A stretch of DNA of 42,865 nt. It comes from a bacterium. Its GTDB lineage: Bacteria; Verrucomicrobiota; Verrucomicrobiia; Limisphaerales; JAJXZI01. Where the stretch lies: the NCBI GenBank assembly GCA_021780115.1, contig JAJXZI010000315.1, positions 1 to 42,865 of the forward strand, read 5' to 3'. Positions 1 to 22,550 of the stretch are shown piece after piece (the first letter of the stretch is position 1; every line of letters starts with the position of its first letter). A program made the translations under genes and the position numbers. A model generated the notes under the pieces. The model was not told where the DNA came from. It searched no databases and was given only the letters and a program-made list of their open reading frames with translations.

Positions 1-232
1 TCGCCAGCCGCCGCGGCGGCGAGGCCCTGATCATCGACCCGGTGCTGGAAAAGGTGGACCGCTACCTGCAACTGGCGAAGGATTTGGACCTGCATCTGGT
101 CAAGGCGGTGGATACCCATCTGCACGCCGACCACATCACCGGCCTCGGCGCGCTGCGCGACCGCACGCACTGCATCACGGTGATGGGCGAGCAGAGCAAG
201 GTGGACGTCGTCTCCATGCGCGTGGCGGATGG
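1..232 (+). pseudogene. Truncated metallo-beta-lactamase-fold hydrolase (persulfide dioxygenase-like)
   Basis: The reading frame is open from the window edge (frame starting at base 3) and encodes an internal piece of an MBL-fold enzyme. The metal-binding motif THLHADHITG (H-x-H-x-D-H) is clear and is followed by a segment typical of the ETHE1/rhodanese-linked persulfide dioxygenase group (LGALRDRT...VMGEQSKVDVV). Enzymes of this group oxidise glutathione persulfide in sulfide detoxification. Homology stops abruptly after MRVADG, near base 229, where a low-complexity heptamer-rich sequence begins. The frame stays open to base 563, but only across an unrelated hypF fragment in the wrong frame. 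The later metal ligands of the fold are therefore missing. The 5' end lies outside the window. Either a real truncation or an assembly join would explain this. Confidence 0.7.
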
Positions 233-307
233 AGGGGGGAGAACGGAGGATGGAGGCGACGGCAGCCGCGGGCAGCCAGTCCGCACTCCGCACTTCGCAC
301 TCCGCAT
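227..307. repeat. Heptanucleotide-type short tandem repeat at the MBL/hypF junction
   Basis: Four consecutive 7-base units read TCCGCAC, TCCGCAC, TTCGCAC, TCCGCAT at 280-307. They are preceded by GGATGGA/GGAGGATGGAGG-type purine-rich repeats at 227-257. The array lies exactly where homology to the metallo-beta-lactamase ends and homology to HypF begins. It resembles the short tandemly repeated repetitive (STRR) heptamers described in cyanobacteria, although no relationship is shown. Confidence 0.7.
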
Positions 308-624
308 TCCTTCTCGATTGGGCGCCGATGGTCCGGGCGATTCTGGACGACTCGAAGCGCGGCGTGCCCGCCGGCGAAATCTCCGCCCGCTTCCACCTCA
401 CGCTTGCGGAAGCCATCGTGGCCGTGGCCCGGCGGATCGGCGAACCGCGTGTCGTGTTGAGCGGCGGTTGTTTCCAGAATCGCCGTCTGACGGAGCACGC
501 CGTCCGGAGGTTGGAGGCGGAGGGATTTCTTCCTTACTGGCATCAGCGAATTCCGCCGAATGACGGTGGCATCTCCCTAGGACAGGTGGTGGCGGCGCGG
601 CGTGCTTTGAAAGCGGCGGAGTGA
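229..624 (+). pseudogene. hypF: C-terminal fragment of hydrogenase maturation carbamoyltransferase HypF
   Basis: From about base 313 this frame matches the extreme C-terminus of HypF (LLDWAPMVRAILDD, then VLSGGCFQNRRLTEHA, then PPNDGGISLGQ). HypF transfers carbamoyl phosphate to the C-terminal Cys of HypE to make the CN ligands of [NiFe] hydrogenase. A full protein is roughly 750 residues with acylphosphatase, zinc-finger, YrdC and Kae1-like domains; only about 100 residues of the last domain remain. An ATG at 229 could start a 131-residue product, but its first ~28 residues come from the heptamer repeat. The piece cannot be a working HypF. hypC, hypD and hypE lie 8.3 kb downstream on the same strand. 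Confidence 0.75.
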
Positions 625-662: not shown

Positions 663-1724
663 TCAGTGGTTCTTGCGTGTGATCCGGTCGGGATTGCGCG
701 CCCGGCTGACGGCGGTGTCGTAGCTGATGAGCGCGTTGGTGTAGAGGTCGTGGAGACAGTTGTCCATGAGCACCATGCCTTCCTTGCGGCCCATCTGGAT
801 GATGTTCTCCAACTGGTGGAGCTGGTTTTCGCGGACGAGATTGCGCACCGCGCCGGTGGCGACGATCAGCTCGAACGCCAGCACGCGCCGGGTGCGGTTG
901 ACCGCCGGCAGCAGTTCCTGGGCGATGATGCCCTGGAACGAGTTGGCCAACTGGAGGATGACCTGCCGCTGGGCCGCGCCTTCGAAGACGCCGGTGATCC
1001 GCTCGATGGCGTGCGCCACGCTCGGCGAGTGCATCGTCGCCAGCACCAGGTGGCCGGTCTCGGCCGCCGTCAGCGCGGTGGCGATGGCCTCCGGGTCGCG
1101 CATCTCGCCGACGACGATCACGTCCGGATCCTGGCGCAGGACGTGGATGAGGGCGCGGTTGAAGGAGCGCACGTCGGTCAGCACTTCCTGCTGGACGATG
1201 ATCGCGCGGCGGTTTTCGTGGACGAATTCGATCGGGTCTTCGATGGTGACGATTTTGCAGCGGCGCTCCTCGTTGATGAGGTTGACCAGGTAGTTCATCG
1301 TCGTCGTCTTGCCCGCGCCGGTGGGCCCGGTGATGAGGACCAGGCCGTTGGGCCGGCGCGCAAAGTCGTCGATCTGCGGCGGCAGGCCCAACTCTTCGCG
1401 GCTCGGAATCTGGTGTCCGCAAAAGCGCATGCTCATCTCGGGGTGGCCGTTGCGGCGGTAGAGCGTCAAGCGGACGCGCCCGGCGGCCTGATGGAGCAGC
1501 GAGATGCACAGCTCCCACTCCTCCTCGAACTTGCGGAGTTGCTGCTCGTTCAACAGGGCATGGGTCATCTCGGTCGCTTCGGCTTCCGTGAGCGCGTCGC
1601 GGTCGGCGAGGATGATCTCGCCGTTGACCCGGAAGGCGGGCGGCACGCCGGCGACGAGGTGAAGATCGGAGGCCTCGTATTCGAGGGCGGCCTCCAGCAG
1701 GCGGTCGAGCGGTTCCGTGGTCAT
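663..1724 (-). CDS. pilT: Type IV pilus retraction ATPase PilT
   Basis: The 353-residue product has the length and layout of PilT, the hexameric cytoplasmic motor that powers pilus retraction and twitching. The N-terminus carries the ASDLHL signature with a PAS-like N-domain. The Walker A motif GPTGAGKTTT sits at about residues 133-142, the Asp box around IEDPIEF, Walker B near DPDVIVVGEMRD, and a His box near GHLVLATMHS. The start at 1724 gives the usual short MTTEPLDRLL leader. It is the last gene of a minus-strand run, 130 bases after the TPR gene, so it may be read with that operon or from its own promoter. The pilB, pilC and prepilin genes lie about 19-26 kb away. Confidence 0.95.
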   Translation of the reverse strand: MTTEPLDRLLEAALEYEASDLHLVAGVPPAFRVNGEIILADRDALTEAEATEMTHALLNEQQLRKFEEEWELCISLLHQAAGRVRLTLYRRNGHPEMSMRFCGHQIPSREELGLPPQIDDFARRPNGLVLITGPTGAGKTTTMNYLVNLINEERRCKIVTIEDPIEFVHENRRAIIVQQEVLTDVRSFNRALIHVLRQDPDVIVVGEMRDPEAIATALTAAETGHLVLATMHSPSVAHAIERITGVFEGAAQRQVILQLANSFQGIIAQELLPAVNRTRRVLAFELIVATGAVRNLVRENQLHQLENIIQMGRKEGMVLMDNCLHDLYTNALISYDTAVSRARNPDRITRKNH

Positions 1725-1854
1725 GGATGGCCGTTCAAACTGCCGACCAAGCGCGGCCGTCCGGATCGCTGCGCGCCAAGAAGCGCGGCTTCCCGCCCGC
1801 CCGTCCGGGCAACGGAGAAGCGGATGGAAGGGGGCGCTCCGGAAAACAGGTCAT

Positions 1855-2631
1855 TCATCGTGAAAAGCGTCGGCGCCAGAAGCCGGCGAGCCGCGCGCCC
1901 AGCCCGGTGGAAGCCGCGCGCGTCTTGGCCAGTCGGGCCTCGGTGCATTCGGGGTTCAGTTCCTGCGCCCGGCTGAAGGACCGCCCGGCGGCGCCCGCCT
2001 GGCCGAGCGCGAGCTGGCACTGGCCCAGTTCCAGCCAGAGCACGAAGCGCGTCGCGTCCCATTCCAGCGCCTGCTGGAGCAGCTTGATGGCGGCGACGCA
2101 CTGCTCGTAGTAATGCCGGATGCGCGCCGCCAGCCAGGCGGTGAACCAGTCGCCGCGCGCCATCGCCAGCGCCTTGTCGAAGCAGTAATCGGCGCGGTTT
2201 TCCTTGCGGGCCAGCAGCACGTCGGCGCGGGCCAGCCAGATGTACGGCGTGTCGCCGCGCTCCTCGATCGCGGCGTCGGAGAAGGCCAGGGCGGCATCGA
2301 GATCGCCGCCGCGGCCCAGCGCGACGGCCTTGGCGGCGAGCAGTTCCGGCTCGTGCGGGAAGTTCTCCAGCGCCTTGTCGGCCCAGACCTTGGCCTCGCG
2401 GAACTCGCCCAACTCGATCAGGGCCCGCACCTGGCCGGTCCAGGCGGCGGCGTTCTGCGGATTGAATTCCAGCGTCTTGGCGTACCAGCGGAGGGCTTTC
2501 TCGAATTCCGCGTCCTCGAAGGATTGGCGGGCGCCGGCCAGGTAGTAGGTTTCGTCCTTCTTGGCCGGCCCGGCCGCCTGGAATTCCCCGTCGGATTCCG
2601 CGTCAAATTCCAGATTGCCGAACCGGCTCAT
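1855..2631 (-). CDS. Tetratricopeptide-repeat protein
   Basis: A 258-residue soluble protein with about five tandem TPR-like helical pairs between residues 28 and 235 (for example FEKALRWYAKTLEFNPQNAAAW and later ALGQAGAAGRSFSRAQELNP). There is no signal peptide or membrane segment; the C-terminus is short and basic. TPR proteins usually act as protein-protein scaffolds. The start overlaps the end of the upstream membrane-protein gene by 4 bases (ATGA arrangement), so the two are probably translationally coupled. It is the last gene of the compact Ycf46/DUF1257/DUF2997 operon before pilT. Its partner is unknown; a scaffold for the AAA ATPase or the membrane proteins is an inference from position only. 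Confidence 0.85.
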   Translation of the reverse strand: MSRFGNLEFDAESDGEFQAAGPAKKDETYYLAGARQSFEDAEFEKALRWYAKTLEFNPQNAAAWTGQVRALIELGEFREAKVWADKALENFPHEPELLAAKAVALGRGGDLDAALAFSDAAIEERGDTPYIWLARADVLLARKENRADYCFDKALAMARGDWFTAWLAARIRHYYEQCVAAIKLLQQALEWDATRFVLWLELGQCQLALGQAGAAGRSFSRAQELNPECTEARLAKTRAASTGLGARLAGFWRRRFSR

Positions 2632-3527
2632 GGCGTGACTTGTTTGGTAAAAAACCAGCGCTTAAACGGCCGCCCCACGAAGTCGTTCTCGTCCACCAGC
2701 GCCAGCCGCTGCATCTCGGCTTCGAAGCTCACCGTGAAGTTGCCGTGGCCACTGATACGCAACTCCGGCCAGACAAACCAGTGATTTTCCGGGACCGTGA
2801 ACGTGCCGGACGCCGGCATGTCGGTCAGGCGGGGAATGGGCGCGCCGTTGATCAGGCAGACCTCCGGCCCGAACTCCACGCGGTCGCCCGGCAACGCGAG
2901 GACGGGACCGTACCCGTAACCGGCCCGCAGCACGATGCCGCCGTGGTTGGCTCTGATCAGGCCGGCCACGCTGGCTTCGATCCGATAGGCCACCCAGTCG
3001 GCCTGCCGGACGCGGGCGGGCCGGGAGCCGGGGTTGACGATCACCATACCGCGGGGCGTCTGGAGCGGCATGGCGACATGCCGGAGGAACCAGTTCCGCG
3101 CCGGGACGTAAACGAACTGGTTGATGCCGGCGAACAAAATGACACTCAGGACCAATTGCGCCCACACGCGCCGGCTGGTGATCCAGGGCAAGATCTGCTG
3201 TGTCACGCTGGCGGCGTGCGCCGAGATGAGCGCCAGGAGCGCCCAATCCGCGGCCGGACGACCGAGGAAGATCAGGAAAACCAGCGCCGCCACGGCGCAG
3301 CCGGCGAAAATGCACTTGGCCACCACGCGCTGGCCGGCCAGGTAAAACGAGAGTCCGGGCACCAGCAGGCCGAGCAATCCCTGGAGCAGCGTGCGCGGCG
3401 GCGGCAGGTGGATCTGCTCCAGATGCAGCACGCGCCGCAGCCATTGCGCCGGGCGCAGCACCGGACTGTACCACCGCGCCCGCGGCGGATAATACACCGA
3501 GCGCAGGACTGTCAGGCGCCGGCTCAT
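2628..3527 (-). CDS. Membrane protein with a degenerate signal peptidase I-like domain
   Basis: A 299-residue protein. The N-terminal half has a YYPPRAR motif and about four hydrophobic segments (near residues 45-65, 70-90, 92-110 and 120-140). The C-terminal half, about residues 150-299, has the layout of an S26 signal peptidase: VLALPGDRVEF corresponds to the box with the general-base Lys, INGAPIP follows, and VPENHWFVWPE corresponds to the late VPxGHYFVLGDN region. The nucleophile box (usually SMxPT) and the Lys before GxPGD are not recognisable, so catalysis is unlikely. Its N-terminal part resembles the adjacent upstream gene, which it overlaps by 4 bases. A substrate-binding or scaffold role is a guess. 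Confidence 0.6.
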   Translation of the reverse strand: MSRRLTVLRSVYYPPRARWYSPVLRPAQWLRRVLHLEQIHLPPPRTLLQGLLGLLVPGLSFYLAGQRVVAKCIFAGCAVAALVFLIFLGRPAADWALLALISAHAASVTQQILPWITSRRVWAQLVLSVILFAGINQFVYVPARNWFLRHVAMPLQTPRGMVIVNPGSRPARVRQADWVAYRIEASVAGLIRANHGGIVLRAGYGYGPVLALPGDRVEFGPEVCLINGAPIPRLTDMPASGTFTVPENHWFVWPELRISGHGNFTVSFEAEMQRLALVDENDFVGRPFKRWFFTKQVTP

Positions 3528-4090
3528 GCGGCCTCGCTGAGGAACCGCGTTGTGGTGACGGCGCGCTCGTATTCGGCGGCACCAACTGGGAGCACATGGT
3601 GCTGCACGAGTCTCCAGATCGGGAAATAAATCGCGAAGATCAAGAACCCGGTCACACCGAACCCGGCGAAAATGCGCCCGCCGAAAGTTTCGATTCCAAG
3701 CAGTTTGGTGAGCAGGTAAGTCGCGGCCGTAGCGTGGATCGAAACGGCGATTCCGAGCGCCAGATAGGCGGGGTCGAACTGGAAGCTTTCATCGAATACG
3801 ACCGCCGCGACCGCTGGCGGCCCGCCCAGCAGGACGCCGAAACACGCCAGGGCCAGACCCCACCCGCCAAATACCAAGCCGGCGGCGATGTTGTGGCGAC
3901 GGAGAAAGAAACTGTAACCCGGCACCCAGAAGCCCAGCGCCATTTGCCCGAGGGAAACGCCGCTGGGCAGGAGTTTGTAGACACCCTGGAACTGCCGGGC
4001 GACGGCGTCCCGCATGTTGCGCAGCGGCACATGCAGCCGGGCACGCGGCGGGTAGTAAGACGATCCGAGTTTTGACGCCTCCCGTTTCAC
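3524..4090 (-). CDS. Multi-pass membrane protein, paralogue of the N-terminal half of the next gene
   Basis: A 188-residue protein of unknown function with three to four predicted transmembrane helices (near residues 48-68, 70-92, 108-130 and 140-160). It begins with KLGSSYYPPRARLHVPLR, which matches SVYYPPRARWYSPVLRP in the downstream gene. The region before the first helix is also alike (LGFWVPGYSFFLRR against LGLLVPGLSFYLAG). The two genes overlap by 4 bases and probably arose by duplication, one copy gaining or keeping the peptidase-like domain. They may form a heteromeric membrane complex within the Ycf46-type operon. I do not recognise a named family. Confidence 0.75.
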   Translation of the reverse strand: MKREASKLGSSYYPPRARLHVPLRNMRDAVARQFQGVYKLLPSGVSLGQMALGFWVPGYSFFLRRHNIAAGLVFGGWGLALACFGVLLGGPPAVAAVVFDESFQFDPAYLALGIAVSIHATAATYLLTKLLGIETFGGRIFAGFGVTGFLIFAIYFPIWRLVQHHVLPVGAAEYERAVTTTRFLSEAA

Positions 4091-4105
4091 GCCTAGTGGG
4101 TGCGG

Positions 4106-4306
4106 CTACTGGCGTTGCTCGATGTGATAACGCACCACTTCATCCGGCTCGTAGAATTCGCTCGTGGCTTGCTGCGACTTCACCTCGCCGACGACGCGCT
4201 CGAACAGTTTCACCGCTTCGAGGCAGCTCTTGCCTTTGTAGCCCTGGACGTGCAGGCGGACGCTGCCGTCCGGCTCGATCGTAATGTCAAATTCGCGTTG
4301 AGGCAT
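4106..4306 (-). CDS. DUF2997 family small protein
   Basis: A 66-residue protein that matches the DUF2997 pattern: an N-terminal strand ITIEPDGSVRLHVQG, then YKGKSCLEAVKLFERVVGEV, then an acidic/aromatic C-terminus with EFYEPDE. The conserved GKSCLE motif, with its single Cys, is intact. The family's biochemical role is unknown. It commonly sits beside a DUF1257/Ycf35 protein and a Ycf46-type AAA ATPase, and both are present here just upstream in the same direction. The gene lies 57 bases after the DUF1257 gene and 15 bases before the membrane-protein gene. A small adaptor or substrate for the ATPase is one possibility, but nothing in the sequence proves it. Confidence 0.8.
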   Translation of the reverse strand: MPQREFDITIEPDGSVRLHVQGYKGKSCLEAVKLFERVVGEVKSQQATSEFYEPDEVVRYHIEQRQ

Positions 4307-4363
4307 TTGCGTGTTGTGGGTTGTGGGGCGACTGGGGCCGCGTCCGGCGCCGCGCGCCGCGGT

Positions 4364-4834
4364 TTAGTTTTCCCAGTGCCGGACCTTCAGCCGGATGGCT
4401 TGGGTTTCGGTCACCTCCTCCTCGACCACCATGAATTGCCGGGCGCGGATTTCGTCCATCAGCTTTTGATAGACGTAGCGCTGGACGACGCGCTTGCCCA
4501 ATTCCTCGCCGAGCGCCCGCAGCGCGTCCTCCGTGTAGCCCTCGCCCGACACGCAAATCGCGGCCTTGCCGCGGGCGTCGCGGGAGAACGTGACCGAGGC
4601 GCCCTCGCGCGTGACGGTGATGCGCTGGTCGCGCGCCAGTTGGTCCGTCACCAACTCGCTCTGGTCAATCTCCAGTTGCACCCGCGTTGGTTTTTCCTCT
4701 TCCCGTTCGGCCGGGGTTTCGGCGGCGCGGGCGGCGACCTGGTAGCCCAGGGAAGTCGCGGCGGCCACCACCGCGGCGCTGAAGGCCGGCCAGGCGGCGA
4801 TCACCACCGGAGTCAGAATGCAGACGGCGCTCAT
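4364..4834 (-). CDS. DUF1257 (Ycf35-like) protein
   Basis: A 156-residue protein. The C-terminal half has the DUF1257/Ycf35 features: an acidic middle stretch (VQLEIDQSELVTDQL), a strand pair, a helix RALGEELGKRVVQRYVYQKL, and a terminal VVEEEVTETQAIRLKVRHW. Ycf35 is encoded in some plastid and cyanobacterial genomes; its activity is unknown. The first ~35 residues here are hydrophobic (AVCILTPVVIAAWPAFSAAVVAAATSLGY) and could be a membrane anchor or signal-like segment. It overlaps the upstream two-helix membrane gene by 4 bases. Its position between Ycf46 and DUF2997 suggests a conserved three-protein module. Confidence 0.8.
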   Translation of the reverse strand: MSAVCILTPVVIAAWPAFSAAVVAAATSLGYQVAARAAETPAEREEEKPTRVQLEIDQSELVTDQLARDQRITVTREGASVTFSRDARGKAAICVSGEGYTEDALRALGEELGKRVVQRYVYQKLMDEIRARQFMVVEEEVTETQAIRLKVRHWEN

Positions 4835-5142
4835 AGCATCATTCGGTTGCGGTCTTTCAGAAGCTTGGACCGGGCGGCGCGTAGTTCGTCACGCGACATC
4901 GGCGCACGCGGCAGGATTTCTCCGTTTGCCACCCGCGTCCGGCGGACAGCCAGCGTCACCAGGCTCACCGCCAACACGCCCAGGCCGAGGAGGACCAGGA
5001 ACCAATCCGCCGAACCGAGCGCGGCCCCGAAGACGCGGACGGCCAGCAGAACGCCGAGGAAACCGACCAGCGATACCAAGAACAGCCGGCCGTAGCGCTT
5101 GTCCTTGGCCTCGTCATACAACTGGCTCCAAAGCGGATTCAT
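4831..5142 (-). CDS. Small two-helix membrane protein
   Basis: A 103-residue protein with two clear hydrophobic helices (about residues 19-40 and 46-66, LFLVSLVGFLGVLLAV and WFLVLLGLGVLAVSLVTLAV). A basic, charged C-terminal tail of about 37 residues follows (RDELRAARSKLLKDRNRMML). I do not recognise the family. The gene begins 37 bases after the Ycf46-like ATPase gene and overlaps the DUF1257 gene by 4 bases, so it belongs to that operon. It could tether the module to the inner membrane; that is inference from topology and position. Confidence 0.75.
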   Translation of the reverse strand: MNPLWSQLYDEAKDKRYGRLFLVSLVGFLGVLLAVRVFGAALGSADWFLVLLGLGVLAVSLVTLAVRRTRVANGEILPRAPMSRDELRAARSKLLKDRNRMML

Positions 5143-5179
5143 GTCATCGGGTCAGTCAACCGGCGTCGGTCGCCGCCCG

Positions 5180-6733
5180 TCACAACTCCATCCGCCGCAC
5201 CGGCCCGGCCTTTTGGGCGTCGCGCGGGACGCTGGCGTTGCGCGCCCGGCCCTCGGACCAACTGCGCAGCCGGTTGATCTGCTCGTCCATCGTCTTCGAC
5301 AGCGGCACCGTCTGCCGCAGCGCCTCCCGCACGTGCTCGGTGGCCAGTTCCTGCTGCGTGTAAAAGGCATCGTAGAGCGCGCTGATGATGGCCTCCTCGA
5401 TTTCCGCGCCGCTGAAATCCTTGCTCCGCTCCACCAGCGCCGGGAGGTCGAACTTCGCCGGATCGCGTCCGCGCTTGCGCAGGTGGATGCGGAAGATTTC
5501 GGCGCGCTCTTCCTCCGACGGCAGGTCCACGTAGAAAATCTCGTCCAGCCGGCCTTTGCGGAGCAACTCCGGCGGCAGTTGCGAGATGTCGTTCGCCGTG
5601 GAGACGACGAACACCGGCGCCGTCTTCTCCGACAGCCAGGTCAGGAACGTGCCGAACACGCGCGCCGTGGTGCCGCCGTCCGTCGCGCCCGAGCCTTGCG
5701 ACCCGGCGAAGGCCTTGTCGATCTCGTCCACCCACAGGATCGCCGGCGCCACCGACTCGGCCACGGAGATGGCCTTGCGGACGTTTTCCTCGGAGGAGCC
5801 GACGAGGCTGCCGAACATCCGGCCCATGTCGAAGCGCAACAGCGGCAGTTGCCAGAGGCTGGACACCGCCTTGGCGCACAGGCTCTTGCCGCAGCCCTGC
5901 ACGCCGAGGAGCAGGATGCCTTTGGGCGCCGGCAGGCCGAAGGCGCGCGCCTGGTCGGTGAGCGCCAGCGCCCGCTTCTGGAGCCATTCCTTGAGCACGG
6001 ACATGCCGCCGACGTGCGCGAAGGTCTCGTCGGTCGCGTAATATTCCAGCAGCCCGTTCTTGCGGATGATCTGCTGTTTCTCGGCGAAGACCTCGTTCAC
6101 GTCGTCGCCGCTGAGCCGCTCGCTCTTGACGATGATCTTGGCGAAGACGTTTTCCGCCTCGGCGAGCGTCAGCCCCAGCGCCGCCTGAAGCAGCCGCTCC
6201 CGCCCCGCGTCGTCCAGTTCGATCTTCACCTGCGGGAATTTCTTCACGTCCTCAATCACCTTGTCCAGCAGCAGCGAGAGATCGTCGCGAGTGGGCAGCG
6301 GGTGGTTCAGGACGGTCACTTCCTTCTCCAACTCGGTCGGGATTTCCAGCACCGGGGCGATGAGGATGATCGTCTTGTAACTGTTCTTCAGGTGGAGGGC
6401 GATTTCCTTGAGCTTGCGGATGACGGCGAAGTTGTTCTTGGTGAGGAGCGGATGGAAATCCTTGAAGATGAAGATGGCCGGCTCGACCTGGTCAATCACC
6501 TGGTCCAGCGCCACCAGCGGATCCTTGGTGGGCGCGTTGCGGTGCTTCTGCGATTGGATGGACGTGCCCGCCGGCACGATGCCGCTGGTGTAGCTCCACA
6601 CGAACACCTTCTTCTGCCGTTTCTGGGCGATGCCCACCACCAGACTCTCCACCCGCGTCTCCTCACTCGACAGGATGTAGAGGATCGGATAGCGGGCGCG
6701 GATCAGCGTCTCGATTTCCTGGGCGAAGCTCAT
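5180..6733 (-). CDS. Ycf46-like AAA+ ATPase
   Basis: A 517-residue AAA+ ATPase with the Ycf46 layout: an N-terminal domain of about 230 residues starting MSFAQEIETLIRARYPILYI, then one AAA module. Walker A is GVQGCGKS (277-284), Walker B is ILWVDEID (332-339), sensor 1 lies at STAND (378-382), and an arginine-finger-like LLRKGRLDEIF follows near 391-400. A four-helix lid ends near residue 480. All residues needed for ATP hydrolysis are present. Ycf46 is linked to photosynthetic CO2 handling in a cyanobacterium, but this genome shows no sign of photosynthesis, so the job here is unknown. The start overlaps the 70-aa gene by 4 bases. It is the central enzyme of the operon. Confidence 0.9.
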   Translation of the reverse strand: MSFAQEIETLIRARYPILYILSSEETRVESLVVGIAQKRQKKVFVWSYTSGIVPAGTSIQSQKHRNAPTKDPLVALDQVIDQVEPAIFIFKDFHPLLTKNNFAVIRKLKEIALHLKNSYKTIILIAPVLEIPTELEKEVTVLNHPLPTRDDLSLLLDKVIEDVKKFPQVKIELDDAGRERLLQAALGLTLAEAENVFAKIIVKSERLSGDDVNEVFAEKQQIIRKNGLLEYYATDETFAHVGGMSVLKEWLQKRALALTDQARAFGLPAPKGILLLGVQGCGKSLCAKAVSSLWQLPLLRFDMGRMFGSLVGSSEENVRKAISVAESVAPAILWVDEIDKAFAGSQGSGATDGGTTARVFGTFLTWLSEKTAPVFVVSTANDISQLPPELLRKGRLDEIFYVDLPSEEERAEIFRIHLRKRGRDPAKFDLPALVERSKDFSGAEIEEAIISALYDAFYTQQELATEHVREALRQTVPLSKTMDEQINRLRSWSEGRARNASVPRDAQKAGPVRRMEL

Positions 6734-6942
6734 GCGGCTGGCTCCTGCGCCGTGGTATCGGATGCCACCGCCTCCGGCGTGCGCGGGCGGATCTGCGGAT
6801 CGTCCGGGTTCAACTCACTCAGCAATTGCGTGAAGGCCCGCGTCAGGCTGTGCCCCAGCACGCGGCCGTCCGGCAGAATGAGGATTTCGCTGACCAGCGC
6901 CCGCTTCCCGTCAGGCGGCTGTTTCAATTCGGTATCGGTCAT
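6730..6942 (-). CDS. Small conserved-looking protein upstream of the Ycf46-like ATPase
   Basis: A 70-residue soluble protein. Its core, SEILILPDGRVLGHSLTRAFTQLLSELNPDD, reads as a beta hairpin followed by a helix. The last 20 residues are low-complexity and probably disordered. I do not recognise a family. Its PDG-turn strand recalls the ITIEPDGSV strand of the DUF2997 protein in the same operon, but the similarity is too short to call homology. The 4-base overlap with the ATPase gene and the 25-base gap after the radical SAM gene argue that it is a real, translated operon member. A cofactor or regulator of the ATPase is possible. Confidence 0.65.
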   Translation of the reverse strand: MTDTELKQPPDGKRALVSEILILPDGRVLGHSLTRAFTQLLSELNPDDPQIRPRTPEAVASDTTAQEPAA

Positions 6943-6967
6943 ACGCTCTGCGATGCAATTTCCGGCT

Positions 6968-7954
6968 TCACACCACCAAATTCAAATCCCATTCGGCGGC
7001 GATTTCCCGCGCCCGGGCCGCCTCGCCGTCCGGGACGGTCCCGCGCAACTCCGGATGCCGCCGCGCCTGCCAGGCCGGCCAGAAGCCGCTGCGCAAGTTG
7101 ACCTTCACGCCGGGCAGGTGGAGCGCCAGCCACTCCGCCACCGGCGCCCAGCAGCACGCGACGTGGCCCGGCATCACCAGGTGCCGCACGATCAGGTCGC
7201 TCTGGCGCGCGGCCCAGAGCAGGTTCTCGCGCACGGTTTCGGTGTAGTTCGGGACGCGCGCCAGCCGCTCGGCGCAGGCGTCGTTGCCGAATTTGTAGTC
7301 GGCGCACCAGACATCGAACAGACCGTGGAGGAACGCGCGGCTGACCACGGAGCCGTGCGCGTTCGTCTTCAAAACGAGCTTCGCCTCGTCCGGCAGCGCG
7401 GCGACCACTTCGAGCAGGAACGGGAGGTGAATCGTCGGCTCGCCGCCCAGCAGCATGACCGTGCGCGCTCCGCCGGCGAGCGCCGCCTCGGCCCGCGTGG
7501 CCAGTTCCGCCGCCGGGATGATCTCGCCAGCCAGCGGATTCCAGCTTTGCGCGCCGGTGATGCAGAAATCGCACCGCAGATCGCAACCGCTGAGCGCGAT
7601 GGCAAACGTGGGGATTAACTCCAGTTCATCCGCCACCTCGACTTGGGCGAGGTGAACCCGCGGCCCGGCCCCGGCCCGGCAAACACCCACCTCGCCGGCC
7701 AACCGGTTGACGCCGCAGTCATGCGCGCAGAACCGGCAGTCCGCCAGCGCCGCTCGCGCTGCCGCGATTCGTCCGGCGGCCACGGCCGAGCGCCTTTCCC
7801 AGCGGCCCGACCGGATCATGGCTGCCAGCGTCCCCGCCGATCCGTGCCCCAGCCCCCTCGCGGTAGGGCGAGGCTCCCGCCGAGCCCCAACGCCCGCCCC
7901 CAAATCAGGGCGCCAGAGCGTCGTCCTCCCCGGTTCCTGGGCCGGTCGGTTCAT
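6968..7954 (-). CDS. PflX-like radical SAM protein (COG1313 type)
   Basis: The product is up to 328 residues. An N-terminal cysteine motif CRFCAHDCGVNRLAGEVGVC (about residues 83-102) is typical of the PflX group, which resembles pyruvate-formate-lyase activating enzymes. The radical SAM cluster motif CDLRCDFC follows (CxxxCxxC), then LLGGEPTIHLPFLLEV, matching the GGE SAM-binding motif. Such proteins cleave S-adenosylmethionine to generate a radical, but the substrate of PflX is not known. The true start may be internal: the first ~50 residues are arginine/glycine-rich and look non-conserved, and AAMIRSGRWERR would be a plausible later beginning. It sits 6 bases after a small gene and 25 before the 70-aa gene, inside the long minus-strand operon. 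Confidence 0.8.
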   Translation of the reverse strand: MNRPAQEPGRTTLWRPDLGAGVGARREPRPTARGLGHGSAGTLAAMIRSGRWERRSAVAAGRIAAARAALADCRFCAHDCGVNRLAGEVGVCRAGAGPRVHLAQVEVADELELIPTFAIALSGCDLRCDFCITGAQSWNPLAGEIIPAAELATRAEAALAGGARTVMLLGGEPTIHLPFLLEVVAALPDEAKLVLKTNAHGSVVSRAFLHGLFDVWCADYKFGNDACAERLARVPNYTETVRENLLWAARQSDLIVRHLVMPGHVACCWAPVAEWLALHLPGVKVNLRSGFWPAWQARRHPELRGTVPDGEAARAREIAAEWDLNLVV

Positions 7955-7960
7955 GACGCC

Positions 7961-8194
7961 TCAGAGGAACAGCCGCCGCCACCACGAGGCCCGGGCTTCC
8001 GACGGAGGTTCCTTCTCCAGCGAGTCGGCCAGCCGCGCCTTGACCGTCTCGGGCACTTCGGTCCGGGCGGCGTCGAAGCGCAGCATTTCCTCGGGCGACG
8101 CAAACTCGCGGCCCGCGGCCTGCGCCTGGGTTTGCCGCGCTTCGGCGGTTTGTTCGTTTTGCCGGTGTTCGAGTTTGGAGGAGGGCGGTTTCAT
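7961..8194 (-). CDS. Small charged protein next to the ECF sigma gene
   Basis: A 77-residue hydrophilic protein, rich in Glu, Arg and Ala. Its central part, REFASPEEMLRFDAARTEVPETVKARLADSL, would form helices, and the tail ends in WWRRLFL. Proteins with this REFAS.EEMLR.D pattern are, to my recollection, common near sigma factors in Verrucomicrobia, but I cannot name a family. It starts 15 bases after the ECF sigma factor gene and ends 6 bases before the radical SAM gene. By position it could be a sigma-associated regulator, but no zinc-binding anti-sigma motif or membrane segment is visible. Confidence 0.7.
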   Translation of the reverse strand: MKPPSSKLEHRQNEQTAEARQTQAQAAGREFASPEEMLRFDAARTEVPETVKARLADSLEKEPPSEARASWWRRLFL

Positions 8195-8209
8195 GTTCCG
8201 GAGTGCGGT

Positions 8210-8788
8210 TTAAGCGGTTTTCGGAAATTCCAGGGCGAAGGCTCTCCGCGCGCGATGCAGTTTGCCGCGTACCGCGTCGGTGGTCTGGTCCGTCAATTGG
8301 CCCACCTGTTCGTAGCTCAGGTGCGCGTCGGCCACCAGCAGCAGGAGCAGCCGGTATTCAGGCGACAGCGTGTCCAGGGTGCGCTGGATGCGCTCGCCAA
8401 GTTCCTTCAGTTCCAGCACCCGCAACGGCGAGTCCGTGTCCGCCGCCGTGCTGTGCAGGAGGGAATCATCGGCGGCGGGCTGGATGTGACGCTCGGCCCA
8501 GTTTTGCTGCAGGTTCCGGCAGTGGTTGATGGCGATGCGGTAAAGCCAGGTGAGCCAGGAGGCCTCGCCGCGGAACTGGTCGAGTTTGCGCCAGGCCTTG
8601 AGAAACACGTCGTGCGTGGCGTCTTCCGCCTTGCCCGGATCACTCAACAGCCGGAGACAAAGATAAAAAATCTGGCGCCCATGCGCCTCGTAAAGCGCGG
8701 CGAACTCCGGCGCCAGCGCCGGGGGCGCGGGCCGGGCCGACGATTCCCGTTCCACGGCCATTTCAGTCCAGGCATCTGTCACGATCAA
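8210..8788 (-). CDS. ECF-type RNA polymerase sigma factor
   Basis: A 192-residue sigma-70 family protein of the ECF type. Region 2 contains FYLCLRLLSDPGKAEDATHDVFLKAWRKLDQF and WLTWLYRIAINHCRN. Region 4 contains LSPEYRLLLLLVADAHLSYEQVGQLT with a following helix VRGKLHRARRAF that would bind the -35 element. The linker is Asp/Ser-rich. It is the first gene of the minus-strand run that continues through the radical SAM and Ycf46 genes with tiny gaps, so it may control its own operon. No classic transmembrane anti-sigma gene lies beside it. The region before its start (8789-8878) is shared with the divergent hypC gene and holds a 13-base palindrome. Confidence 0.9.
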   Translation of the reverse strand: MIVTDAWTEMAVERESSARPAPPALAPEFAALYEAHGRQIFYLCLRLLSDPGKAEDATHDVFLKAWRKLDQFRGEASWLTWLYRIAINHCRNLQQNWAERHIQPAADDSLLHSTAADTDSPLRVLELKELGERIQRTLDTLSPEYRLLLLLVADAHLSYEQVGQLTDQTTDAVRGKLHRARRAFALEFPKTA

Positions 8789-8830
8789 TTAGACCGGACG
8801 GCGGCCCGGATGTCACGCCCGCGTTGCGGC

Positions 8831-8878: not shown

Positions 8879-9133
8879 ATGTGTCTGGCCATTCCAGGTA
8901 AGATCGAGACGATCGCGGGCGACGACCCGCTGCTGCGCCTCGGCCGGGTGAATTTTGGCGGCATCGTCAAAGAGGTGAGCCTCGCCTACGTGCCGGAGGC
9001 CAACGTCGGCGATTACGTCATCGTCCACGCCGGGTTTGCCCTCAGCCGCGTGGACGAGGCCGAGGCCCGCCAGGTCTTCGACTACCTTCGGCAGATGGAC
9101 GAACTGGCGGAGGCGCCGGAGGCCGGGCCGTGA
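8879..9133 (+). CDS. hypC: Hydrogenase maturation chaperone HypC
   Basis: An 84-residue protein beginning MCLAIPGKI, the invariant HypC/HupF N-terminus whose Cys2 binds the Fe(CN)2CO precursor and HypD or the hydrogenase large subunit. The rest ([40 protein letters not shown]) is the standard small OB-fold-like barrel. The reading frame is open far upstream, but the ATG at 8879 is the only start that gives the required Met-Cys end. The stop overlaps the hypD start (GTGA), indicating translational coupling. No hydrogenase gene is in the window, so its client is encoded elsewhere or lost. Confidence 0.93.
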
Positions 9134-10236
9134 AGTTCCTGGACGAATACCGCGACGCCGCGGCGGCGCAGAAGCTCGCCCAGGAAATCCACCGCGTCAC
9201 CACCCGGCCCTGGAGCCTCATGGAAGTTTGCGGCGGCCAGACGCACGCCATCGTCAAGTTCGGCCTCGACCAACTGCTGCCGCCCCGGATCACGCTCATC
9301 CACGGTCCCGGCTGCCCGGTGTGCGTCACGCCGCTGGAACTCATCGAGCAGGCGCTGGACCTCGCCGCCCGGCCGGGCGTCCTGTTCTGCTCGTTCGGCG
9401 ACATGCTCCGCGTGCCCGGCCGTGCCACCGATCTGCTCGCGGTCAAGGCCGCCGGCGGCGACGTGCGCATCGTCTATTCACCGCTCGACGCCGTCAAACT
9501 CGCCGAACAGTTTCCGGCCAGGGAAGTCGTCTTCTTCGCGGTCGGTTTTGAAACCACCGCGCCGACGACGGCGATGGCCGTCTTTCAGGCGGCGCGGAAG
9601 GGGCTGAAGAATTTCTCGCTGCTCGTCTCGCACGTCCTTGTCCCGCCGGCGATGGAGGCGATCCTGTCTTCGCCGAACTGCCGGGTGCGAGGGTTCCTCG
9701 CGGCCGGCCACGTCTGCACCGTGATGGGCTATTGGGAGTACTTCCCCATCGCGGCGAAATACCGCGTGCCGATCGTGGTCACCGGCTTCGAGCCGCTGGA
9801 TATTTTACAGGGCGTCCTGATGTGCGTGCGGCAACTGGAGTCGGGCCGCGCGGAGGTCGAAAACCAGTACGCCCGCTCGGTGCGCGAAGCCGGCAACCGG
9901 CCGGCGCAGCAGCTCCTCCAGCAAATCTTCGGCGTGGTGCCGCGCCAGTGGCGCGGGGTCGGCGAAATTCCGCAGAGCGGCCTGGGCCTGCGCCCGGAGT
10001 ACGCGGCGTTCGACGCCGCGAAGAAATTCGGCCTCGCCGATCACCACGTCGCGGAGCCGGCCGAATGTCGGAGCGGCCTGGTCCTGCAAGGCCAGATCAA
10101 GCCGCACGAGTGCCCGGCCTTCGGCACCCGCTGCACGCCGGAGCATCCGCTGGGGGCGACGATGGTGTCGAGCGAGGGGGCGTGCGCGGCGTACTACCGT
10201 TACCGGCGTCATCAGCCGGCGGTCGCGACGGCATGA
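9130..10236 (+). CDS. hypD: Hydrogenase maturation iron-sulfur protein HypD
   Basis: A 368-residue HypD, the [4Fe-4S] scaffold on which the Fe(CN)2CO unit is assembled together with HypC. The conserved motifs are intact: CGGQTHAI near residue 35, [10 protein letters not shown] near 59, [11 protein letters not shown], and GHVCTVMGY. The C-terminal cluster Cys set is also present, with [21 protein letters not shown] and [10 protein letters not shown]. The start is a GTG at 9130 that overlaps the hypC stop by 4 bases. Length is normal for the family. A 113-base gap with heptamer repeats separates it from hypE. Confidence 0.95.
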
Positions 10237-10246
10237 ACGAGTTCAA

Positions 10247-10334
10247 AATCCGAAATCTGAAATCCGAAATGCCTCCGGACCCAGCGGTGCGCGTTTCAGA
10301 CTACGAGCGTCGGGTGTCCTTCGGATTTCGGATT
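10247..10334. repeat. Inverted heptanucleotide repeats between hypD and hypE
   Basis: Three 7-base units AATCCGA, AATCTGA, AATCCGA run from 10247 to 10267. Two exact reverse-complement units TCGGATT, TCGGATT run from 10321 to 10334. The two arms could pair into a stem of about 14 bases around a 53-base spacer. The unit length (7) is the same as in the array at 280-307 near hypF, although the unit sequence differs. Confidence 0.75.
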
Positions 10335-10349
10335 TAACTTCGCGCCGCC

Positions 10350-11405
10350 ATGCCTCCGCCGACTGACTTCACCTCCGCCTGCCCGCTGCCCCTGGCCCAG
10401 TACCCGCACGTCCTGCTGGCGCACGGCGGGGGCGGAACGCTGATGCACCAACTGCTGGAGCAGGTGTTCCTCGCCGCCTTCGGCCGCCCCGCGCCGGGCG
10501 CGCAGCACGACTCCGCCGTGCTGGACTGTCCGGCTCAGCGCCTCGCTTTCACCACCGACTCGTATGTCGTGCGGCCGATGTTCTTCCCCGGCGGCGACAT
10601 CGGCTCGATGGCCGTGTACGGCACGGTGAACGATCTGGCGATGAGCGGCGCGCGCCCGCGCTGGCTCAGCGCCGGGTTCATCCTCGAAGAGGGCCTGCCG
10701 ATGGAATCATTGGGGCGGGTCGTCTGTTCGATGCGCGACGCCGCGCGGCGCTGCGGCGTGCGAATCGTCACCGGCGACACCAAAGTGGTGGACAAAGGCA
10801 AGGGCGACGGGCTGTTTCTCAACACCGCCGGCATCGGCGTGGTCGAACACGCGCTCACCATCGTGCCGCGGAGCGTCCAGCCGGGCGACGCCATCCTGGT
10901 CAACGGCGACCTGGGGCGGCACGGCATGGCGATCATGGCCGTGCGGGAGGGACTCGATTTTCAAAGCGTCATAGAAAGCGATTCCGCGCCGGTCGCCGAC
11001 CTGGTTCTCGAACTGCTCCGCGCCGGCCTCCCCGTTCACTGCTTGCGCGACCTCACCCGCGGCGGCCTGGCCAGCGCGCTGAACGAAATCGCCGCGGCGG
11101 CTGGGGTCCACCTCACGGTTGACGAAACGCGCATTCCAGTGCGGGAGGACGTTCACGCCGCCTGCGAGTTGCTCGGGCTGGACCCGCTGCACGTCGCCTG
11201 CGAAGGGCGGTTCGTGGCGTTTGTCCCCGCGGGTGAGGCGGAGCGGACCTTGGCCGTTCTGCGCGCCCATCCCTCCGGCTCGGGGGCGGCGCTGATCGGC
11301 CAAGTGGGGGCCGATGCCCCGCCACTCGTCGTCTTGAAGAGCGCCCTCGGCGCGAGCCGGATTCTCGACATGCCCAGCGGCGAGCAACTGCCGCGGATTT
11401 GCTGA
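10350..11405 (+). CDS. hypE: Hydrogenase maturation protein HypE
   Basis: A 351-residue HypE. It dehydrates the thiocarbamoylated C-terminal Cys to a thiocyanate, using ATP, and donates CN to the HypCD iron. The protein ends in PRIC, the required C-terminal motif with Cys as the last residue. Upstream are the PurM-like features: [12 protein letters not shown] at the N-terminus, [30 protein letters not shown], and later [13 protein letters not shown]. Everything needed for function appears intact. It follows hypD after a repeat-containing gap rather than the tight spacing usual in hyp operons. HypE needs HypF, yet only a C-terminal hypF fragment exists in this window. Confidence 0.95.
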
Positions 11406-20053: not shown

Positions 20054-21181
20054 TCAGTGGCAATTTCCCGACGTGAAGCCCTGGACCAGGTTTTGCAGGG
20101 CCGTCTGCATGAGGCTGTTGGCGCTGACCACGGCGCCGTAGGCGCCGCCGCTGGATTGAAAGCCGTTGTTGGCCCAGTTCACGTAGGCGCCCATGTAGTT
20201 GGTGACGCTGCTCATCACCGCGGAGGGGGTGTAGGTGACGCCGGAATAGCCGTTGGCGGGACTGGAGGCGAACCACGCGGCGGTCAGCCCCATCGCGCTT
20301 GCGGTGATCCCCGGGGCGTTGGTCGTGAGCACCGGCGGGGCTTGGAAGAGCAGGCTGGGCGTGTCGGCCGCGGCCACCAGTTTGGTGTCCACGCGCGCGC
20401 CGACGCCGAGGGTGACGACCGTGCCTTGCAGGAAGTAGCCGTCCACGAGGCCGCCGGGGACATTCGTGAGCGTGAGCGAGTCGATGGCGAGCAGATTGGT
20501 CGCGAAGCAATTGCCCAGCGTCAGCCGGACGAAGAGCGGCGCCAGGTTGATCCGCTGCGCGCACAGGTCGCTGCCGCTGCCGCGCCAGCCGGTCCAGGCC
20601 GCCCCCGGCGGCAGGGTGCCGTCGGCGTTGGTCCAGAGGACGTTGAAATCACTCGCGGAGAGGCTCGGCAAGGCCGGTCCCAGCGAGGAAACGAGCACCA
20701 AGCGGGGGCTGACGGGCGGGACCAACACGCCGCCGTTGGTCACCACCGAGCCGGTGAGGAAATTCGTCTGGGCGTAGGGCAGGCCGCCCCCGGCGCGTCC
20801 GATCTGGAGTTGCGGGTCCACCAACAGGAGCCGCGGCTGGCCGCACGCGTTGGTGGCGACGGCCGTGGGGCTGGCGCCCAGTTCGGTGGCGACCACCGCG
20901 GCCCAGTCGGCCGGCCCCGGGACGTAACGGTTGCGCAAAATGCCATTCTGGAGGGCATTGGCGTAGCTGAGCAGGTTGGTGCTTTCCTGCTGGCTGTTGA
21001 GCAGGCTCAGTTGCTTGAGGCTGGCGGTGAACACCATGCTGGCGAGGATCATCGTCACCGCCAGGACGCCGACCATTTCCAGCAGGGTGAAGCCGGCCCG
21101 GCGGCGCGGTCGGCGCGCGGCGGGGAACCGCGGTTCCTCGTCGAGATTTTGGTGCGGCGGGTTGGGTGGGCGAATCGTCAT
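20054..21181 (-). CDS. Type IV prepilin-like protein, type A copy 1
   Basis: A 375-residue prepilin-like protein, taking the ATG at 21181. After a 30-residue basic leader the prepilin peptidase site is AG|FTLLEM, with Glu at +5, and a hydrophobic helix (VGVLAVTMILASMVFTASL). The mature domain is long and mostly beta, with the landmarks QQESTNLLSYANALQNGILRNRY and LAPLFVRLTLGNCF. It resembles the gene at 22551-23687 across its length (QQESTNL, NRY.PG..DWA, ATELGA). It is the last gene of the pilB-pilC-prepilin run. It would be a pilin or minor pseudopilin, cleaved at the inner membrane. Confidence 0.85.
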   Translation of the reverse strand: MTIRPPNPPHQNLDEEPRFPAARRPRRRAGFTLLEMVGVLAVTMILASMVFTASLKQLSLLNSQQESTNLLSYANALQNGILRNRYVPGPADWAAVVATELGASPTAVATNACGQPRLLLVDPQLQIGRAGGGLPYAQTNFLTGSVVTNGGVLVPPVSPRLVLVSSLGPALPSLSASDFNVLWTNADGTLPPGAAWTGWRGSGSDLCAQRINLAPLFVRLTLGNCFATNLLAIDSLTLTNVPGGLVDGYFLQGTVVTLGVGARVDTKLVAAADTPSLLFQAPPVLTTNAPGITASAMGLTAAWFASSPANGYSGVTYTPSAVMSSVTNYMGAYVNWANNGFQSSGGAYGAVVSANSLMQTALQNLVQGFTSGNCH

Positions 21182-21215
21182 GGGCGCGCGGCGCGATCGG
21201 AATGGGCCATCCGGG

Positions 21216-22535
21216 TCATTTGCCAATGAGGTTGCCGGTCCCGTCGATCCAGATGAACACCTGGAGGAGGAGTTGCTGATAGGAGAAGCCAAGGAAGCTG
21301 CCTTGCGACGCGAAACAGGGCGTCTGGTTCGCGTAGGCGCCGTAGGCGAACATGTAGGAGTATAACATGGTGGCGACGCTGGCGGGCGTGGCGCCCCAGG
21401 AGGTGTGAGGGTAGGTGGGCGCGTTGAGAAACTGGTTGGCCAGCGGGGTGATCTGGGCGGCCAACGCCGCGTACGGGCCGGCGTTGTTGTTGGTCGCGCC
21501 GGCAAACTGCAGGCTGGTGGGCCAGTTGGTGGAGGGAAACAGCGGGCTGTAGTCCCCCTTCAGGATCTTCTGGGTGATCAGGTTGGGATTGGCATTCGTG
21601 TCGCCCAGGCGGAGCACGGTGCCATCGAGGAAATAGGCGTCCAGCACGTTCGTGCCGGCGGGCAGGTGGACGGCGGGGTTGTTATCAATGACATAGTAAC
21701 CGACCGTGCCGGAATCGTCCTGGTTCAGGATCAACCGATGAAACAGCGGCTCGAGGTTGATCCGTTGGATCACCAAGTCCTGGCCGCTGCCCGCCCAATT
21801 GGTCCACGTCGGGGGCTTGCCCCGCGGCGGAGTGTTCCAGAGGTCATTGAAACTGGCGGTGGACGGAGCGCCGCTCGCCACCGGCAGGGTCCGGGACAAC
21901 GTCGCGACGATCATCACGCGGGCGTTCACCGGGCGGGGGGTGCCGGTGGCCGTCTGGTTGAACGGCAGGGAGACGGTCCCCAGCCAGCCGTTGGTGTCGA
22001 GGAGGAACGCCCGGGCGTAGCCGCGGGGGGTGGTGGTGATGCTGGGGAGGGGCATGGCGGCGGCGGAACTGACGGCCGTCGCCCAGTTGGTATAGGAGGG
22101 AACGCTCTTGCTCGACAGGATGTAGGACTGCAAGGCGGCCGCCATGACGCCCAGATCGGAAGTTTCCTTGGTCCACGCCGCCTGGTCCATCTGCTTCAAC
22201 ACCACCGGAACCATCGCCGTGGCAAGGATGGCGATGATCGCCATGACGCCGGCCAGTTCGATGAGGGAAAAGGCGTGGGTGCGCGGATCAGGCGCTGTTG
22301 GCGGCGGTTCGCTCGCAAGCTGGCGGCTGCGTCGGCGCACACACCGTCCGCATCCGCGGCAACGTCCCGCGCGCTGGGCGAAGGGCAAGTCATCCAGCCC
22401 TCGGTGTCCGGGCCAGGCCGGGCAGACGGTGAACCGGCTGCGCCCTGCCGCCGTGAGTCGCCGCGCCGCCCGCACGCGAGCCGGCGCCAGCATCAACCCC
22501 CGAAGACCGAACGGCTGCTGGTGGCACTTTTGCAT
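21216..22535 (-). CDS. Type IV prepilin-like protein, type B copy 1
   Basis: A prepilin-like protein of up to 439 residues. The cleavage region reads THA|FSLIELAGVMAIIAILA, with Glu at +5, but Ala stands at -1 where Gly is almost universal. The leader would be about 88 residues, Arg/Cys-rich and not conserved, so the true start may be downstream at a non-ATG codon. The mature part (VVLKQMDQAAWTKETSDLGVMAAALQ, then NLWNTPP-like and IQRINLEPLFHRLILN motifs) closely parallels the gene at 23684-25009. The gene starts 15 bases after the stop of the type A copy 2 gene. Confidence 0.8.
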   Translation of the reverse strand: MQKCHQQPFGLRGLMLAPARVRAARRLTAAGRSRFTVCPAWPGHRGLDDLPFAQRAGRCRGCGRCVRRRSRQLASEPPPTAPDPRTHAFSLIELAGVMAIIAILATAMVPVVLKQMDQAAWTKETSDLGVMAAALQSYILSSKSVPSYTNWATAVSSAAAMPLPSITTTPRGYARAFLLDTNGWLGTVSLPFNQTATGTPRPVNARVMIVATLSRTLPVASGAPSTASFNDLWNTPPRGKPPTWTNWAGSGQDLVIQRINLEPLFHRLILNQDDSGTVGYYVIDNNPAVHLPAGTNVLDAYFLDGTVLRLGDTNANPNLITQKILKGDYSPLFPSTNWPTSLQFAGATNNNAGPYAALAAQITPLANQFLNAPTYPHTSWGATPASVATMLYSYMFAYGAYANQTPCFASQGSFLGFSYQQLLLQVFIWIDGTGNLIGK

Positions 22536-22550
22536 GGTCCAGTCCAGGCG

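Follow-up and report, generated by a model that had tools for sequence, protein, structure and literature searches.

Gene content and organization of the locus

The window analyzed here is a stretch of 42,865 nt (contig JAJXZI010000315.1, assembly GCA_021780115.1) from the JAJXZI01 lineage of Verrucomicrobia, part of a genome of 5.15 Mb that is 85.7% complete. Positions 663–8816 hold a block of twelve minus-strand genes in which an extracytoplasmic function (ECF) sigma factor, a Ycf46-type ATPase (hereafter AAA), proteins of the families DUF1257 and DUF2997, a radical SAM enzyme (rSAM), several membrane proteins and a PilT-type ATPase stand together with two promoter-like motifs, as follows.

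663–1724, minus strand: PilT-type pilus retraction ATPase (Pfam T2SSE, 8.8e-44; phmmer search against PDB)
1855–2631, minus strand: tetratricopeptide repeat protein (TPR; Pfam TPR_19, 8.9e-17), starting MSRFGNLEFD, a docking-motif candidate
2628–3527, minus strand: membrane protein M2, with a degenerate signal-peptidase-I-like C-terminal domain (profile search)
3524–4090, minus strand: membrane protein M1, related by alignment to the N-terminal part of M2
4106–4306, minus strand: DUF2997 protein (Pfam PF11211, 1.3e-15), with a near-invariant G-x-K-G-x-x-C
4364–4834, minus strand: DUF1257 protein, Ycf35-type, with a hydrophobic N-terminus (Pfam PF06868, 2.9e-5)
4831–5142, minus strand: TM2, a hydrophobic 103-aa protein, two-helix according to the initial annotation, with orthologues in several relatives
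4864–4892, minus strand: second promoter-like copy, GTGAC-N17-GTCCAAG, inside the 3' end of TM2 and 29 nt before DUF1257 (score 15.5)
5180–6733, minus strand: AAA, a Ycf46-type tandem AAA ATPase (Pfam AAA, 8e-27), with a degenerate first domain (D1, residues ~1–230), an active-type second domain (D2, ~235–484) and the C-terminal tail RRMEL
6730–6942, minus strand: S70, a 70-aa protein with the motif ILPDG...HNLTP, which occurs with rSAM and is conserved in alignment
6968–7819, minus strand: rSAM, PflX-like (Pfam Radical_SAM, 4.4e-10), with CxxxCxxC, an N-terminal Cys set and a C-terminal PGHxxCC
7961–8194, minus strand: S77, a 77-aa protein between ECF and AAA, of no family, with a conserved C-terminal WW
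8210–8761, minus strand: ECF sigma factor (Pfam sigma70_r2, 4.1e-15; sigma70_r4_2, 2.2e-8), its reading frame open to TTG 8788
8788–8816, minus strand: promoter-like motif GTGAC-N17-GTCTAAT, upstream of the ECF gene

The eleven open reading frames (ORFs) at 1855–8788 that the initial annotation had described are all present, and a GC-frame gene caller chose the same set. Their tight packing holds for the 4-base overlaps at S70/AAA, TM2/DUF1257, M1/M2 and M2/TPR, while the other junctions are gaps of 6–130 nt. The array does not end at 1855 as first described, but runs on into the PilT gene, which is found with TPR in relatives. Two of the original starts have been revised. The ECF gene probably begins at ATG 8761, since the TTG at 8788 overlaps the −10 element of the promoter at 8816–8788, and rSAM probably begins near 7819, since the alignment of its relatives starts only there.

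The ATPase

By sequence and model, the ATPase is a p97/Cdc48-like tandem AAA protein in which the first domain has lost its P-loop and the second is intact. It aligns over its whole length, N-terminal region included, with cyanobacterial Ycf46 members and thus belongs to that family. Its AlphaFold2 model (pLDDT 84.8, pTM 0.74) matches p97/Cdc48 from end to end (Foldseek E 4.7e-24, TM 0.69–0.70, ~560 columns), both AAA folds being recovered. Among 45 homologues, Walker A was found in 0 of 45 N-terminal halves and in 45 of 45 C-terminal halves, so that one of the two nucleotide sites of Cdc48/p97 is missing throughout and the protein is therefore p97-like and not a Cdc48. The position of Walker A in D1 is instead occupied by an invariant E24 and the near-invariant E25 and R27, and the invariant residues of D2 comprise Walker A, D336-E337, N381 and R392/R395. 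The statement that the ATPase has all catalytic motifs is consequently right for the second AAA domain and wrong for the first. D2 is also the sole working ATPase in Pvc15, an AAA protein of an injection system (PMC11495950).

The other proteins of the block

The sigma factor contains sigma regions 2 and 4, which assigns it to the ECF group. In rSAM, the cluster motif GCDLRCDFC is kept in relatives, as in the radical SAM superfamily. Pyruvate formate-lyase activase or any other named equivalog could be discarded for it, the best score being 28 bits against NCBIfam cut-offs that are all >130. No Pfam or NCBIfam family matched S77 or S70.

The DUF1257 protein scores 24.7 bits against a gathering threshold of 22.2 for PF06868, over the C-terminal 40 positions only, and aligns full-length with typical family members. 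Its model (pLDDT 73.7) gave no match below E 0.06 in a fold search of the PDB, and a profile search gave no credible match. The DUF2997 protein is far above its threshold (57.5 bits against 24.1 for PF11211), and its Cys is conserved in 95% of the 39 rows of the alignment, where the two exceptions are spurious ORFs. For M2, the top six matches of a profile search against the PDB are all signal peptidases (best E 5.2e-4), which supports similarity to that fold; by eye, neither SMxP nor KRxxGxPGD, which would carry the Ser and Lys of signal peptidase I, is recognisable in its alignment. TM2 was considered as a PspM, and that match was weak and far below the cut-off.

PilT is closer to PilT than to PilB (best PDB match E 3.4e-84 against ~1e-20) and contains AVRNLVRE, which matches A(I/V)RNL(I/V)RE, the motif of retraction ATPases. 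The same contig also carries PilB (T2SSE 5.7e-123), PilC (T2SSF 6.3e-52) and several prepilin-like genes at 20054–28186.

Two cassettes and their distribution within the order

Full-length AAA orthologues (62–85% identity) with conserved neighbours were found in 26 of 58 genomes of the same order, so this array is not a chance arrangement. ECF and S77 are nearly invariant around AAA in these 26 genomes; S77 was detected in 25 of them and in none of the 32 without AAA (Fisher 1.5e-15, uncorrected for kinship), and it is a candidate partner or regulator of ECF. Judged from gene order, the invariant core in the order is ECF-S77-AAA, often with TPR-PilT. The operon is therefore not built around a Ycf46/Ycf35/DUF2997 module, as had been supposed, because about half of the order's lineages lack the set made up of rSAM, S70, DUF1257 and DUF2997. 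The joining to ECF, rSAM and membrane proteins is nonetheless borne out by the gene order of relatives, whose conservation reaches well beyond the three DUF/AAA genes, so that the refutation foreseen in the initial annotation did not occur.

An rSAM orthologue is present in 12 of the 58 genomes and adjoins AAA in all 12. DUF2997 of the window's type occurs in 11 of the 26 AAA genomes. These are G047, where a distant rSAM lies beside AAA, and 10 of the 12 genomes that carry the rSAM orthologue; the two with rSAM and no DUF2997 match are G015 and G055 (79% complete). The AAA tail, rSAM and DUF2997 are jointly missing from one genome in each of two sister pairs (G009/G051 and G011/G044). This type of rSAM is rare outside the order, with only three genomes at E<1e-40, the window's own among them, in a phylum sample of 289 genomes.

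DUF1257-DUF2997-TPR-PilT follows AAA in G026, G013, G011, G014 and G032, while in G001, G040, G006, G009 and G047 the DUF1257/DUF2997 or TPR-PilT neighbours lie on a contig other than that of AAA. The array is thus composed of two cassettes, ECF-S77-(rSAM-S70)-AAA-TM2 and DUF1257-DUF2997-M1/M2-TPR-PilT, fused in the window and in five other genera and apart in at least four others.

A promoter-like motif shared by the cassettes

The motif GTGAC-N17-GTCnAAT stands upstream of ECF in the window and in at least 14 loci of relatives. A scan for the sigma-70 consensus promoter gave no match here, because the motif reads TCTAAT instead of TATAAT. When searched by pattern only, the 5.15 Mb genome of the window contains three exact copies, compared with none of the reversed control. 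One is that at ECF, another lies on contig C343 between a Lon-LolA-like pair and a gene that we call c14, and the third precedes a 50-aa prepilin-like ORF. Since relatives have ECF after Lon-LolA, and c14 (there without a motif copy of its own) after PilT, the arrangement Lon-LolA-promoter-c14 on C343 seems to be the vacated ancestral site of the block, with its promoter kept.

The weaker copy in front of DUF1257 recurs as well, since a position weight matrix placed one 8–33 nt upstream of that gene in nine of ten loci tested, some of them unlinked to ECF, and it is strong in G013 (21.8). The single transcript that had been proposed must be qualified by this internal promoter-like copy. Other genomes have exact copies upstream of a PilT gene (G009), of PilB/GspE-like genes (G051 and G042) and of a prepilin gene (G013).

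A terminal motif and the tail of AAA

A short motif at protein ends, RFxxLE(L/F), was found by inspection; its bearers in these loci come from at least five families of unrelated proteins. Among 1575 called proteins, its relaxed form R[FIM]xx[LM]E[LFMI] was counted at 22 sites near the N-terminus and 8 at the C-terminus, where shuffled sequences gave 0.9 and 0.1. TPR orthologues, taken as a single family, make up most of the 22 and bear the motif in both Verrucomicrobia and Planctomycetes; the other bearers are a rhomboid-like protein, protein k18 of contractile loci, a membrane protein with a zinc ribbon and two single proteins. To judge by these sequences, the tag looks like a docking signal, although still a candidate one.

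AAA itself ends in a tail of which RRMEL, RRMEF and YQRMEF are examples. Within the order, DUF2997 is present in the genomes of 11 of the 12 AAAs with such a tail and of 0 of the 13 without (p 2.7e-6, uncorrected). In the comparison across phyla, DUF1257 or DUF2997 shares the locus with 37 of 40 tailed and 11 of 36 untailed AAAs (17 of 20 and 11 of 36 when cyanobacteria are removed).

Distribution beyond the order

In a scan of named genomes, covering the best 80 of at least 586 relatives, Planctomycetes have the arrangement rSAM-AAA-DUF1257-DUF2997-M-TPR-PilT, without ECF-S77, in Phycisphaerae (L142, L152), in planctomycete L175 and in Pirellula (L195), and a rhomboid-like gene precedes it in three of the four loci. 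Their rows and those of Verrucomicrobia form one clade of 20 rows in the AAA tree (SH-aLRT 98). PilT keeps company with TPR, M2, DUF1257 and DUF2997 in both phyla, also where this cassette is apart from AAA. The rhomboid-like protein precedes rSAM in L031, L038, L043, L142, L152, L154 and L175, and is not in the window; some of these proteins, inspected by eye, lack the catalytic motif (L155 is the contig of L038, and the two count once where this matters).

The view that these families are mainly photosynthetic has to be abandoned. AAA accompanies both DUF1257 and DUF2997 in Planctomycetes, Myxococcales, Omnitrophota and Hodarchaeota (in the last as DUF1257-DUF2997-AAA), DUF2997 in spirochaetes, and DUF1257 in cyanobacteria, in the order AAA-DUF1257. 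A second, NrdG-like type of rSAM (Fer4_12, 4.2e-31) adjoins AAA in spirochaetes, in a Clostridiales metagenome-assembled genome (MAG) and in an archaeon, and lies near AAA in Gordonia and Anaeromyxobacter MAGs.

Another setting is that of contractile injection systems. Two spirochaete MAGs have AAA and DUF2997 among genes for tail sheath, tube and baseplate, plasmid pTRESU01 of Treponema succinifaciens (48560–78065, L290) has a 4Fe-4S protein, AAA and baseplate genes in a row, and in Myxococcales/Deltaproteobacteria MAGs AAA is found beside core proteins of extracellular contractile injection systems (eCIS). In the clusters L144, L160 and L290 the Ycf46-type AAA stands with a radical-SAM/4Fe-4S protein, and in two of them also with DUF2997; from these neighbourhoods, such systems may regularly include an AAA of this type. 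The genome of the window, 85.7% complete, gave no match to the tail sheath family PF04984, with positive controls, and thus does not qualify as carrying an eCIS; the test for effector loading by a contractile system, made in it by this sheath search, was negative.

Proposed role and alternative explanations

From fold, gene order, promoter and motif, all read from sequence or model, we infer a client, a receptor and a role. Tentatively, and at somewhat less than an even chance, we propose that the block at 663–8816 encodes an AAA remodelling complex under ECF sigma control that serves a PilT-type machine (a type IV pilus or a related one) at the membrane. The sigma factor, with S77 as its partner or regulator, would recognise two promoters, that of its own gene and the weaker one in front of DUF1257. 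DUF1257 and DUF2997 would be adaptors or cofactors that join AAA through the C-terminal RRMEL tail, and proteins with a terminal RFxxLE(L/F), here TPR and in relatives the rhomboid-like protein, would be tethered to the same complex, beside PilT and M1/M2. ATP hydrolysis in D2 would then pull apart or re-assemble subunits of the PilT machine, while rSAM with S70 would act as a maturase, modifying or activating a member of the complex, plausibly at the near-invariant Cys of DUF2997. The earlier proposal of a remodelling machine is retained in its membrane-linked, ATP-driven part, given the whole-length match of AAA to Cdc48/p97; its radical-modified client is not borne out.

Several observations weigh against this proposal. 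The pore residues W-Y of Cdc48 D2 align with L-V in AAA, and therefore threading may differ. AAA lies apart from PilT in several genomes of the order, and in most other phyla PilT is not among its neighbours. The tail and DUF2997 changed only a few times on the order's tree (6 and 7 changes) and, since they did so together so rarely, the phylogenetic pair test is not significant, even though sister pairs agree. The motif of TPR is kept in loci without DUF1257/DUF2997, so these cannot be its sole receptor. As to the promoters, the bases of the copy before DUF1257 also encode a conserved terminal peptide of TM2, (S)RDELRxARSK (window 4831–4892), which could explain part of the copy's conservation. 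The background is about one exact match per genome, also in order genomes without AAA, and therefore single extra sites prove little; the pilB/pilC cluster of the window (20054–28186) has no copy. A pilus regulon of the motif is accordingly put forward only as a suggestion from site positions, considering this background, that G042, which has the motif before a PilB/GspE-like gene, has no AAA, that prepilin-like genes are numerous in such genomes, and that the sites were picked post hoc.

Of the alternatives, a general protein quality-control operon is the one that deserves most attention, although we consider it unlikely: AAA and a redox or Fe-S partner would unfold damaged envelope or cytosolic proteins under ECF-sensed stress, with PilT and TPR as passengers. 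This would agree with p97/Cdc48 being a general unfoldase, with the position of ECF behind Lon and a LolA-like gene in several relatives (four loci also have an Hsp20-like protein) and with cyanobacteria, in which DUF1257 and DUF2997 are clustered with the gene of the stress-tolerance ferredoxin Fed7, which binds a DnaJ-like protein (PMC4284462). It does not account for TPR-PilT staying with DUF1257/DUF2997 where AAA is elsewhere, nor for the planctomycete cluster, which has PilT, no ECF and no Lon found nearby, and the cluster itself is without a protease partner. A system for peptide or protein modification, in which rSAM would modify S70 or DUF2997 and AAA with DUF1257 would present the substrate or recycle the complex, is distinctly improbable. 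Two different rSAM types adjoin AAA in different phyla, S70 occurs with rSAM and DUF2997 has its near-invariant GxKGxxC, but most AAA-DUF1257 loci, including all the cyanobacterial ones, are without rSAM nearby, so that such a modification cannot be general. Moreover, neither a recognition domain for ribosomally synthesized and post-translationally modified peptides nor an export gene was seen in the cluster, and G015 has rSAM and S70 but no DUF2997.

Hardly more probable is a part for AAA in cargo loading or release at a secretion-type machine, in this lineage a type II-like or pilus-like secretion system, on the model of Pvc15, whose D2 alone powers payload loading for a contractile injection system (PMC11495950). 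The presence of AAA, DUF2997 and rSAM inside the contractile-injection loci of Treponema and another spirochaete, and of AAA beside eCIS core proteins in the Myxococcales/Deltaproteobacteria MAGs, speaks for it; the genome of the window is without a sheath gene, no candidate cargo was found, and the stretch of the Treponema plasmid has no annotated protein with the terminal motif. We give very little credence to the idea that these are loosely related genes clustered by history, their co-distribution reflecting genome size or lineage and no shared machine. The few gains and losses on the tree and the pair test would fit it, yet gene order is kept from Verrucomicrobia to Planctomycetes, three traits are jointly absent in one member of supported sister pairs, and both the promoter motif and the terminal motif are common to the loci.

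The remodelling complex proposed for the window may be one case of a wider pattern. We regard it as possible, though rather doubtful, that Ycf46, DUF1257 and DUF2997, often with an rSAM or Fe-S partner, form a portable AAA remodelling platform, not previously described, which different machines recruit through the short terminal docking motif RFxxLE[L/F]. In Planctomycetes and Verrucomicrobia its users would be pilus-type machines, in spirochaetes and myxobacteria contractile injection systems, and in cyanobacteria and plastids another client.

Comparison with known systems

The Ycf46 of cyanobacteria and red-algal plastids is of the same family as AAA (~51% identity), and in the cyanobacterial loci fetched it is followed directly by DUF1257 and has a tail of the same kind, YQRMEF. 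These loci differ in having no ECF, S77, rSAM, M1/M2, TPR or PilT alongside, and their DUF1257 is shorter, without the hydrophobic N-terminus of the window protein. DUF1257 and DUF2997 cluster with fed7 in cyanobacteria (PMC4284462).

With Cdc48/p97 (VCP), the protein shares the tandem AAA domains, the full-length fold match and the catalytic residues of D2, whereas D1 is without a P-loop, the pore aromatics of D2 are replaced by L-V, and the adaptors would be DUF1257/DUF2997. Pvc15/Afp15 resembles it in its tandem AAA domains with D2 as the only active ATPase (PMC11495950) and in that Ycf46-type AAAs occur inside contractile-injection loci, but an additional N domain is present in Pvc15 (PMC11495950) and the window genome lacks a sheath gene. 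We know of no case of Pvc15 working with DUF1257/DUF2997. PilT is a clear member of the retraction module of type IV pili (PilT/PilU); to our knowledge, the well-known pilT loci contain no AAA, rSAM, DUF1257 or DUF2997. Among the papers searched, none deals with Ycf46 together with DUF2997 and contractile systems.

The genes for Ycf46 and Ycf35 are old ones in plastids and cyanobacteria, and no role is settled for them. That both turn up, among the same neighbours, in archaea and in bacteria that do not photosynthesize indicates a role that is not purely photosynthetic. The operon supplies named partners (PilT, TPR and the pseudo-signal-peptidase), a motif for a putative regulon and a short candidate tag for docking, and it suggests one type of unfoldase common to pilus-type and contractile injection machines.

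Genomic setting and mobile elements

The block is flanked by hyp genes on the opposite strand.

268–603, plus strand: C-terminal end of hypF, left flank (57% identity to residues 772–883 of a relative's HypF)
8879–9133, plus strand: hypC, right flank, followed by hypD and hypE

The genes hypF-hypC-hypD are contiguous in eight relatives (L116–L123), and the ECF-PilT block sits here between hypF and hypC (window 1–624 and 8879–11405); the remainder of hypF in the window genome is on contig C185. The first ~220 bases of the contig resemble, by eye, part of a gene for an MBL-fold hydrolase, and a chimeric contig end at the start of the window is therefore possible. The window contains no Rfam or tRNA feature.

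A divergent AAA lineage, ~45% identical to that of the window (L055–L062, L130–L134, L156, L158), is accompanied by a DUF3150-type protein, DUF1257, DUF2997 and a 75-aa protein, and adjoins in places a ligase-like gene, a beta clamp and RadC, surroundings that resemble mobile elements. Ycf46-type AAAs also occur in 54 phage records, many of them mycobacteriophages with the annotation AAA-ATPase. A further 670 records are of plasmids, for the most part conjugative and enterobacterial; identity in the matches listed is ~33–52%.

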